Shown here: piece by piece, positions 9,894 through 13,562 of the stretch | Numbering within the stretch: position 1 is the stretch's first letter | Layout: each line of letters begins with the position of its first letter | Source: Paraniabella defluvii | Lineage (GTDB): Bacteria; Bacteroidota; Bacteroidia; Chitinophagales; Chitinophagaceae | Length of the DNA stretch: 64,000 nucleotides | Assembly (NCBI GenBank): GCA_019316985.1 | Contig: CP079215.1 | Span: 1,364,001-1,428,000 of the forward strand | Direction of reading: 5' to 3' | Notes under the pieces: model-generated | The model's database searches: none | Seen by the model: only the letters and a program-made list of their open reading frames with translations | Told to the model about the DNA's origin: nothing | Made by a program: the position numbers and the translations under genes

Positions 9894-11054
9894 GTGGACG
9901 CAGTTAAACCCTATATCGCACACTTCGATCTCGATTCCTTTTTGTGTCGGTTGAGCTGTTGCTTCGACCCGAACTTAAAGGGAAACCCGTTATTGTAGGT
10001 GGATCAGCCAACCGTGGCGTGGTGTCTACCTGTAGTTACGAAGCCCGTAAATTCGGCGTACACTCTGCCATGCCTATGGCAACAGCCATGAAGCTGTGCC
10101 CGCAGGCTATTGTGCTAAAAGGCACTTACCAGCAGTACAGTTATTATTCTAAAAAAGTTACAGATATTATTGCGTCTAAAGTGCCGCTTTTTCAAAAAGC
10201 CTCTATCGATGAGTTCTATTGCGATCTTACAGGAATGGACCGCTTCTTCAACGTAAGTCAATATACTCAGCAGCTCCGAACGTTTATTACAAAGGAAACA
10301 GGGTTGCCGATCAGCTGCGGACTGTCTTCTGCCAAATTCATCAGTAAAATGGCCACCAACGAAGCAAAGCCCAACGGATTTTTAAAGATCCCGCATGGTA
10401 AGGAAAAAGACTTTTTGTGGCCCCTGGGTATTGAAAAAATTAATGGAGTAGGTAAGCAAACAGAGCAACGCCTGAGAAGCATCGGCCTTCACACGATTAA
10501 AGACATAGCCCAGACACCCGTTGAGATACTGGAGAAAAAACTGGGTAAATGGGGGCTGGAGCTATGGCAGAAAGCACATGGGTTAGGTAGCGCCGAATTA
10601 ACAACCGAATGGAACCAGAAAAGTATGAGCCATGAAACTACTTTTCACGAAAACCAAACCAACATAGAGTTTCTTCACAGCCAGTTGGTAAGGCTAACCG
10701 AAAAAATGCCTACGATCTGAGGCAGGACGAAAAACTGACCGGCTGCCTTACTGTTAAGATCAGGTACGATGATTTTGAAACTACCAATAAGCAGGAAAGC
10801 TTCCTTATACATCTTTAGACGATGAGCTGATCGAAAAAGCGAAAGATATATTTGACAAGTTTTACCAACGGGGCCGGGCTGTACGGCTCATTGGCGTCCG
10901 GTTCAGTCAATTAGTAGACTCTGGCATGCAAATGAACTTATTTAACGACCAGCACAATAAATTAAACCTGTATAAAGCCGTAGATGATATCAAAAACCGG
11001 TTTGGCGATCAGCTGGTTTCAAAAGCCGTAGTGGGCAGAAAGAAACCAAAATAA
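9894..11054 (+). CDS. dinB: DNA polymerase IV (Y-family)
   Basis: Error-prone Y-family polymerase for translesion synthesis. After adding a T lost near 9944, the frame extends upstream to a GTG at 9894, giving VDAVKPYIAHFDLDSFFVSVE; the FDLDSFFVSVE segment holds the first catalytic Asp and the aromatic steric gate. The palm motif ASIDEFYCDLTG holds the SxDE catalytic residues and GVGKQTEQRLRSIG is the helix-hairpin-helix. The little-finger domain needs two more repairs, an A loss near 10706 (LTEKN|AYDLRQ) and a C loss near 10808 (SFPYTSLDDELIEKA). The C-terminus NLYKAVDDIKNRFGDQLV is typical. Repaired length about 387 aa. Confidence 0.93.
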
Positions 11055-11061
11055 CAACCTA

Positions 11062-11157
11062 TTCCCCAAATATTAGTATTTTCGGAGATCATGTTCCCCA
11101 AATATTATTATTTTCAGAGATTACATTCCCCAAATATTACTATTTTTGAAGCTCAAT
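11062..11157. repeat. Three tandem 32-bp direct repeats upstream of a DUF4143 ATPase
   Basis: Three head-to-tail units start with TTCCCCAAATATTA at 11062, 11094 and 11126, each 32 bp, and each continues nTATTTTc/tGGAGA-like sequence. Unit 1 and 2 differ at only a few positions; unit 3 is more diverged in its last third. The third ends about 10 bp before the ATPase start codon. Its TATTTTTG at 11141-11148 matches the TAnnTTTG -7 box, whereas units 1 and 2 have TATTTTCG and TATTTTCA, so the repeat may be a multiplied promoter/operator. Confidence 0.8.
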
Positions 11158-11167
11158 TTTGCTTTTT

Positions 11168-12277
<1,110 letters not shown>

Positions 12278-12379
12278 TTCCTGCGCAACCGTTTGTCTTT
12301 ATACTGTTGTCAAAAAGCTTTTTATTTGCAAAATCAAAAGCTTTGCAATCCAAAAAAATTTCATTTTTAATCAGGAAGT

Positions 12380-13562
12380 ATGAACGAAAAATTTACCCAA
12401 CGTATAGCAGGTGAAGTGGAAGAAAAAAAGCTCCGGCCTGTATAAAAGCGAACGCGTTATTAATAGTCCGCAGGAGCTGAAATAGAAGTTAACGGCAAAA
12501 CCGTACTCAATTTTTGTGCAAACAATTACCTTGGCCTTTCGTCACATCCCGATGTGATTAAAGCAGCGCATGAAGCCATCGATTCTCATGGCTATGGTAT
12601 GAGCAGTGTACGTTTTATTTGCGGAACACAGGATATCCATAAAGAGCTGGAAAAAAAGATCTCTGAATTCTTAGGCACAGAAGATACGATTTTATACGCG
12701 GCAGCTTTTGATGCAAACGGGGGCGTATTTGAACCTCTGTTTAATGATCAGGATGCTATTATTTCTGATGCTTTGAATCATGCCAGCATTATTGACGGTG
12801 TACGCCTTTGTAAAGCCCAGCGTTTTAGGTATGAGCATAATAATATGGAAGACCTGGAAGCTAAATTACAGGAAGCGGCCGGCTGCCGTAGCCGCATCAT
12901 CGTAACTGATGGCTCATTCAGCATGGATGGCACTATTGCCCAGTTAGACAAAATTGTGGCACTGGCCGAAAAACATGACGCGGTCATTATGATTGATGAA
13001 TGTCACTCATCAGGTTTCCTGGGTAAAACCGGTCGTGGCACCCACGAGTATCGTGGTGTAATGGGCAAAATAGATATCATTACCGGCACTTTAGGTAAAG
13101 CATTGGGCGGCGCATCAGGAGGTTTTACTTCGGGCCGAAAAGAGATCATTGATATGTTGCGCCAGAAATCACGTCCTTACCTGTTTAGCAATACGGTGGC
13201 GCCCTCTATTGTTGGTGCGTCTATTGCAGTACTGGATATGCTTTCAGCCTCCACCCACCTGCGCGACAAACTGGAATTTAACACCAAATATTTCCGGGAA
13301 AATGACGGCGGCTGGCTTCGACATTAAACCAGGCGACCACCCCATTGTACCGATCATGTTGTACGATGCAGTATTAGCAGCCGATTTTGCCGCAAAACTA
13401 TTAGAAGAAGGCGTATATGTTATTGGCTTCTTCTTCCCCGTGGTTCCCAAAGGCCAGGCGAGAATACGGGTACAACTGAGCGCGGGTCACGAACAGGATC
13501 ACCTGGATAAAGCCATAGCAGCCTTTACCAAAGTGGGTAAAGAACTGGGTGTATTGAAATAA
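12380..13562 (+). CDS. kbl: Glycine C-acetyltransferase (2-amino-3-ketobutyrate CoA ligase)
   Basis: PLP enzyme that splits 2-amino-3-ketobutyrate with CoA into glycine and acetyl-CoA in threonine breakdown. Conserved parts: [48 protein letters not shown], and the PLP-lysine region [15 protein letters not shown]. The C-terminal half includes [17 protein letters not shown]-like [19 protein letters not shown]. Frame breaks near 12431 (A run), 12475 (G loss, SPQ|GAEIEV) and 13305 (A loss, [12 protein letters not shown]). Repaired length about 394-395 aa, normal. Other alpha-oxoamine synthases are possible, but the N-terminus [14 protein letters not shown] and overall match favour Kbl. No tdh partner is adjacent. 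Confidence 0.9.

Follow-up and report, generated by a model that had tools for sequence, protein, structure and literature searches.

Operator-like tandem arrays upstream of AAA_14-DUF4143 ATPase genes covary with two residues of a predicted recognition helix

Control of a gene by its own product, through operators at the promoter of that gene, is already known. The C proteins of restriction-modification systems are thought to bind inverted repeats at their own promoter and thereby set their own level, and type II toxin-antitoxin operons carry palindromic operators that overlap their own promoter. Repeated inverted sites also lie next to the gene of archaeal Orc1/Cdc6. The ATPases examined here belong to the AAA_14-DUF4143 family, for which we take COG1373 to be another name, and their gene family is identical to that of PDC-S01 in PADLOC. 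All five relatives scanned with PADLOC matched PDC-S01 models (E values down to 1e-188); because the copy in our window is broken, the window gene takes the PDC-S01 name from two relatives, L035 and L005. Phage defense is a candidate role that rests on this PADLOC label. In the accessible text of the source, PDC-S01 ranks fourth in frequency among prokaryotic defenses (29,494 bacterial and 9,986 archaeal systems), and validation is pending for most PDCs (PMC12988326). The accessible parts of the descriptions of PDC-S01 give counts and the ATPase and PD-(D/E)XK domains; they give no mechanism and mention neither upstream arrays nor a DNA code for it (PMC12988326, PMC13356809).

The scheme that we propose for DUF4143 ATPases resembles that of the C proteins in being linked to defense and in having inverted repeats at the gene's own promoter. 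The difference is that a C protein is a small regulator on its own, whereas the DUF4143 reader, ATPase, and nuclease-like domain would be one protein; in place of a separate small helix-turn-helix regulator, we found a single AAA_14-DUF4143 protein of about 370 amino acids. Unlike a type II toxin-antitoxin operon, the window locus has a single gene, and the sites form a row of two to five units at fixed spacing. Archaeal Orc1/Cdc6 and Orc1-2 are like the DUF4143 ATPases in that a winged helix comes after the AAA+ core (2qby, Z 12.3; 1w5t, Z 11.9), but the DUF4143 ATPases add a C-terminal PD-(D/E)XK-like domain, and their sites lie at the gene's own promoter and differ for each gene. Sites at the gene's own promoter, one mark of an autoregulator, were observed, and reading of those sites by the protein's own DNA-binding domain is indicated by way of the coupling described below.

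A preliminary description of the window, by which we mean the whole 64,000-nucleotide stretch of DNA analyzed, had reported three near-identical 32-bp units in front of a DUF4143 ATPase gene. This was confirmed: a tandem array of three head-to-tail units occupies positions 11061 to 11156, and its lag score of 41 was reached by none of 2,000 dinucleotide shuffles (shuffle maximum, 18), compared with scores of 17 or less in the other 300-bp stretches of the window, taken every 50 bases. TRF placed the repeat at 11061 to 11146 (period 32, 2.7 copies), with a score of 130 that was the highest among 21 rows for the window. Operator-like unit 1 (11061 to 11092, ATTCCCCAAATATTAGTATTTTCGGAGATCAT; delimited by TRF and unit comparison), unit 2 (11093 to 11124), and unit 3 (11125 to 11156) all read on the plus strand, and their pairwise identities are 27/32 between units 1 and 2, 27/32 between units 1 and 3, and 24/32 between units 2 and 3. 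The second half of unit 3 is worn; in an ortholog alignment, the corresponding unit of genome G003 retains the mirror arm GGGGAA. The array begins six bases past the stop codon (11052 to 11054) of a dinB-like frame, and 11 bases separate its end from the ATG at 11168, in agreement with the roughly 10 bp described earlier. The -7 box of Bacteroidota is TAnnTTTG, and each unit has an octamer resembling it: TATTTTCG in unit 1, TATTTTCA in unit 2, and TATTTTTG in unit 3. Read from the sequence, only the last of these (11141 to 11148, plus strand) fits TAnnTTTG, as had been claimed; the accompanying claim of a TATTTTxG in every unit fails at unit 2, which has no G at the eighth base.

Scattered copies of the unit in its own genome, a candidate that we considered, were rejected, and the earlier statement that there is no other copy extends to the whole genome, where extra matches stay at the level of reversed controls. 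A 21-base core with up to three mismatches recovered the three units and one 3-mismatch match (the reversed control pattern gave three), and a 15-mer with up to one mismatch recovered the three units and one further site (reversed control, one). The lone 3-mismatch match is the start of a frame that we read by eye as a sugar kinase. The exact window unit is thus confined to the window locus in its genome, and elsewhere it was found at orthologs of that locus.

The interrupted gene behind the array (11168 to 12277, plus strand) was identified by Pfam as an AAA_14-DUF4143 ATPase gene, with a full-length match that contains five stops (two TGA, one TAG, and two TAA). The AAA_14 domain (PF13173) spans 11168 to 11524 and the DUF4143 domain (PF13635) spans 11756 to 12043; both exceed the curated cutoff in L035, L005, and two open pieces of the window gene. 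The flanking dinB-like and kbl-like frames are broken too (9944 to 13562), and the genome, a single contig, has a completeness of 72%; the broken frames and the completeness together suggest an indel-rich assembly. The names dinB, kbl, typA, and rarA are our own reading of the frames. The chromosomal setting is ordinary, between housekeeping-like genes. The ortholog in G003 (L035) has an open frame and an array of the window unit type. The window genome also has a second DUF4143 gene, L005, with a different unit sequence that likewise forms a 32-bp repeat directly before the start, and a third DUF4143 match (L007, 1441 to 1790, minus strand), which lies after a rarA-like gene, has no AAA part, and looks like a truncated remnant.

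Arrays of this kind are common in front of DUF4143 genes. A significant tandem array preceded the start codon in 118 of 208 DUF4143 rows, mostly from Bacteroidota, and 92 of these arrays had a period of 31 to 34 bp; among 416 control genes, 17 had any array and none had that period. The preliminary description had proposed enrichment over other promoters as a check, and enrichment was present in the first survey sets (50/82 plus 47/81, hence 97/163 rows, against 17/416 other genes) under a criterion that no shuffle of 200 reached; the 31- to 34-bp period occurred in 74 of those 163 rows and in 0 of the 416 controls. The totals of 82, 163, and 208 rows each include the window gene twice. A further sample, consisting of a phylum-wide draw (148 genomes, 56 matches, 50 taken) and one viral contig, yielded arrays in 21 of 45 rows. 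The survey drew on the window genome (G000) and 38 relatives (30 loci and 60 stretches) and on 80 genome-collection loci, a few of the loci being MAGs titled as other phyla (Cloacimonadota, Delongbacteria, WOR-3, and Caldisericaceae). Start codons were set by HMM, and rows with no N terminus, with fewer than 200 upstream bases, containing N, or identical to another were dropped before the 163 were counted. The control split was HMM based and excluded any gene whose own upstream sequence ran into that of a DUF4143 gene. It replaced a first control set (46/336 positive, 9 at a period of 31 to 34), in which DUF4143 genes had been missed by a P-loop pattern and which was also contaminated by divergent neighbors sharing an array. 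PF09820 as a control family gave too few matches (4 in 39 genomes), so AAA_21 was taken instead; at its 30 loci, 2 of 87 control genes were positive.

What the family shares is, on these comparisons, an architecture rather than a sequence. The exact 32-bp unit was rejected as a family-wide motif because both unit types that we scanned proved lineage specific; array sequence differs by lineage. The earlier suggestion of a general, little-described DUF4143 leader therefore holds for the architecture and fails for the 32-bp sequence itself. The period class of an array was that of the nearest array-bearing relative in 96 of 113 genes (80 in the 32- to 34-bp class, 13 in the 22- to 23-bp class, and 3 in the 37-bp class). 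Where a tandem array is absent, a single long inverted repeat often lies close to the start codon, and either a tandem array or an inverted repeat was found in 126/163 DUF4143 rows versus 43/416 controls; the remaining 37 of the 163 rows had neither, which counts against a family-wide operator reading. On the branches of L014, L031, L032, L034, and L010, one long inverted repeat ends 0 to 6 bases from the start codon.

Most 32-bp units consist of a 16-bp half-site, in its common form TAATCNCCAAAATTTA, and the reverse complement of that half-site. Because the units are mirrored 16-bp half-sites, an array of about two to five units has a dyad at each 16-bp step, and its repeat length of 32 bp is close to three helical turns. 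With arrays folded on their period, dyad symmetry (P ≤ 0.05) was present in 69 of 81 rows of the 32-bp class, in which the window gene is counted twice, and in 60 of 76 rows of a stricter set. The other classes gave 7/15 (33 to 34 bp), 8/15 (22 to 23 bp), and 3/3 (37 bp), and the less regular dyads of the 33- to 34-bp and 22- to 23-bp classes count against a general operator reading. Spacings of 22 to 23 and 32 to 34 bp would suit binding to a single face of the helix; a spacing of 37 bp is a poorer fit, since it is no whole number of helical turns, and this also counts against the reading. The end of the array lies a median of 20 bp from the start codon (92 arrays with a period of 31 to 34). 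In 112 of 208 DUF4143 rows, compared with 66 of 416 controls, a TAnnTTTG stood no more than 60 bp from the start. Among the 92 arrays, it was found within that distance in 56 and overlapped or abutted the array in 42 of the 56, a pattern that favors the multiplied promoter or operator put forward in the preliminary description.

To place these sites beside the protein, we used an AlphaFold2 model of L180 from Pedobacter psychroterrae (pLDDT, 90.1). AAA_14 and DUF4143 lie in one chain, modeled as an AAA+ core, a winged helix (helices 196 to 208, 216 to 223, and 227 to 239, followed by a strand), and a C-terminal PD-(D/E)XK-like domain. The Walker residues G24 to K30, D80, and E81 are conserved, and across 48 sequences D324 and K339 are invariant and E337 is nearly so; in the model, these three residues look like a PD-(D/E)XK signature. 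The best structural matches were the archaeal ATPases Sso1545 (2fna) and Pab2304 (2qen), each with a Z of 16.2 over about 250 residues at 15 to 20% identity; the likeness spans residues 1 to 276 of the model and hardly covers the C-terminal domain. A sequence search for solved relatives gave three matches, all of them weak and all to VCP-like ATPases in their AAA core. The stretch of the window gene that aligns with the winged helix (approximately residues 200 to 250 of L180) lies at about 11756 to 11908 on the plus strand, and by frame reading the codons equivalent to D226, K227, and K228 (motif GVDKKT) lie at 11837 to 11845 on the same strand.

Half-sites of the 32-bp class were aligned from the DNA alone and compared by mutual information with 291 variable protein columns in 77 genes. 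These 77 exclude four rows of less than 300 amino acids (the window gene twice, L069, and L096); the L069 array was used in the half-site alignment and left out of the coupling. The best of the 291 columns for base 5 was residue 226 (z of 15.7; next, 8.3), and the best for base 6 was residue 228 (z of 15.4; next, 6.0). Both residues sit at the start of the recognition helix of the winged helix in the L180 model. At base 5, D226 went with C in 47/48 genes, S226 with G in 12/15, and N226 with A or G in 7/8; at base 6, N228 went with A in 26/31, K228 with C in 17/17, E228 with G in 8/8, Q228 with G in 4/5, and H228 with C in 4/4. The exceptions thus include 3 of the 15 S226 genes and 5 of the 31 N228 genes. 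Asparagine is known to prefer A, lysine or histidine a G on the opposite strand, and aspartate or glutamate C, and by these side-chain preferences the residue-base pairs are chemically sensible. For the window gene, with its motif GVDKKT, the code assigns C to both base 5 and base 6 of the half-site (TATTCCCC).

Kinship was controlled for with 38 disjoint sister pairs, in which residues 226 and 228 again ranked first, here of 299 columns. Residue and base changed in concert in 8 sister pairs for 226 and in 12 for 228, with 3 and 5 discordant pairs (Fisher P of 8e-6 and 1e-5, respectively). Among genes outside the fit with an identity of at least 0.38 and a confident site reader, the code was obeyed in 18 of 20 (226) and 15 of 16 (228), under limits (identity of 0.38, score of 8) that were chosen without being fixed beforehand; with no score limit, the figures were 37/49 and 36/43. 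Bases 7, 8, and 9 had as top columns residues 27, 51, and 135, which lie outside the winged helix and had lower z values; we take these signals as rare-residue effects. A run over all bases gave high z values to the near-invariant columns 25, 27, 120, and 135, with residue 25 coupled to base 2, and when it was repeated with bases 4 to 10 only, residue 120 was gone from the top columns for its base. One pair of paralogs in 25 within genomes had the same code (P of 0.02 against shuffling, with some half-sites coming from the weaker reader); with one genome kept for the genus, the count was 1/20 (P of 0.27), which gives no support to insulation between paralogs.

The ortholog of the window gene in G002 lies outside the coupling fit because its frame is broken. 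All three of its units read TTCACC in place of the TTCCCC of G000 and G003, and units 2 and 3 carry the mirrored change on the opposite arm too. Its helix motif is GVDKNT, compared with GVDKKT in the window gene, G003, and G001 (C at base 6). G002 agrees with the code and, set beside its relatives, shows a natural switch of one residue and one base between orthologs (K228 with TTCCCC, N228 with TTCACC).

Seventeen genomes, with G000 as the window genome, were compared across the genus. The array and its DUF4143 gene precede a kbl-like gene in 5 of the 17 (G000, G003, G001, G002, and G012), with the dinB tail ahead of the array in all of these except G001, whose upstream flank differs; in G008, dinB precedes kbl with no DUF4143 gene between. 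From this shared position, the gene and array at the kbl locus look inherited by descent, and a mobile-like cassette is at most a candidate reading of this locus, whose ends are not delimited. Scans of the 17 genomes with two unit types, the search that the preliminary description had asked for, placed every match upstream of a DUF4143 gene (7/7 in three genomes and 11/11 in seven genomes); the DUF4143 genes used for placement had been found independently of the unit scans. Seven further orthologs form a second group, whose arrays are by eye plainly more conserved than their surroundings; one member (L063) is short of 32 bp, or one unit.

Direct reading of each array by its own ATPase, which the preliminary description had raised as one possibility, is strongly supported by the coupling of the site to the predicted recognition helix. 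We consider it probable that each ATPase binds its own promoter array, with cooperative autorepression as the most likely consequence of that binding, since the array runs into the promoter and the A/T stretch of the half-site resembles the -7 box. Dimers would bind each dyad, and neighboring dimers would cooperate on one face of the DNA. Binding to the array would exclude RNA polymerase and so keep a potentially harmful ATPase-nuclease scarce; expression might be released by a change in ATP or oligomer state or by invading DNA that titrates the protein off the array. A tentative extension, to which we give a minor share of our confidence, is that the array is a tripwire: the ATPase-nuclease would sit on its own promoter sites, and losing that contact in infection, whether to competing phage DNA, to an anti-repressor, or to transcription running through the array, would both raise its level and arm it. 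If that were true, the setting of the site by readable residues could let paralogs of one cell run as separate circuits and could make the operators of tens of thousands of uncharacterized members predictable from protein sequence.

Other readings were weighed against autorepression. It seems unlikely that the ATPase binds the array as an activator or a start platform (for Orc1/Cdc6-like assembly, DNA cutting, or self-marking) rather than mainly as a repressor. Its fold kinship with AAA+ winged-helix proteins, including the Cdc6/Orc1 initiators (2qby, Z 12.3), its conserved Walker residues and D324, E337, and K339 pattern, and repeated inverted sites by the gene that recall archaeal origins would all fit such a role; however, the arrays run into a -7-like box just before the start codon, the usual place of a repressor, and the window gene occupies an ordinary chromosomal place among housekeeping-like genes. 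Reading of the arrays by another host regulator or by a sigma factor is, we think, very unlikely. Although the half-site includes a stretch resembling the general -7 box, unit sequences differ among the genes of a single genome, both scanned unit types were found only before DUF4143 genes, and the unit tracks two ATPase residues better than it tracks any other column of the ATPase.

Mirror-symmetric units and the paired arm changes in units 2 and 3 of G002 would also fit pairing in RNA, as hairpins of the messenger leader. That the repeats act in this way is nonetheless highly improbable: a -7-like box in or at the end of the array puts most of the array upstream of the predicted transcript, the coupling is to a DNA-reading helix, and the sole Rfam match (STnc180, 10985 to 11157, minus strand) reached 22.1 bits against a gathering score of 50 and is probably due to chance. 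Neutral duplication at one locus, which the preliminary description had named as grounds for abandoning its proposal, draws on the observation that the exact unit occurs only at the window locus and its orthologs. That observation stands, but arrays of the same period and unrelated sequence occur family-wide, arrays are retained in orthologs, and the unit is coupled to the protein, so that we regard this explanation as scarcely credible. Overall, the interpretation in the preliminary description is partly supported, and cooperative autorepression is the reading that we prefer.

As far as searches of the open literature, preprints aside, show, what is new is the combination of gene-specific operator arrays and a readable code in a very common AAA+ nuclease-like defense candidate. 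Each gene of the 32-bp class receives a predicted cognate DNA site, a molecular property that is directly testable, and the arrays and code offer a handle for footprints, reporters, and structures. One widespread protein would combine an ATPase, a nuclease-like domain, and the putative reading of specific DNA sequences.

Relatives of the protein also occur in 313 plasmid records, 12 phage records, and 2 viral contigs, the two viral relatives having come from one scan of a viral collection. One 14.9-kb IMG/VR contig has a DUF4143 gene with a 32-bp array (L285, 2890 to 2960) beside an SNF2-like helicase frame. In a Balneolales MAG, two adjacent DUF4143 genes (L128, 2501 to 3640 and 3864 to 4988) each have their own 32-bp array, with different half-sites, and genome G060 has at least nine DUF4143 genes, some of them side by side on one contig (L237, L265 to L268, L270, L273, and L276). 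Seven hand-chosen plasmid records from outside Bacteroidota were examined. Tandem arrays at 0/200 shuffles were present on the Treponema (32 bp), Rhizobium (22 bp), and Sulfitobacter (23 bp) plasmids, and by eye the Treponema gene fits the code at base 5 and misses it at base 6. The Moraxella plasmid has an inverted repeat at 0/100 shuffles, the Thermus plasmid a short inverted repeat at 1/100, and the Paracoccus plasmid a 45-bp lag at 1/200; the Desulfosarcina record had no repeat (best, 4/100 shuffles). On a 12-kb Bacteroides finegoldii plasmid record, a DUF4143 gene (L289, 5986 to 7116) shares a stretch with tet(Q) and a gene with an RteC domain and is preceded by a weak 33-bp repeat (1/200 shuffles). 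The DUF4143 gene of Thermus thermophilus pTT27 (L290, 24854 to 26074) has a 23-bp inverted repeat upstream and is presumed to be TT_P0211, a DUF4143 gene that, in the accessible text of the source, which draws no connection to self-regulation, was 6.6-fold up with plasmid only when Argonaute was present (PMC4406477).
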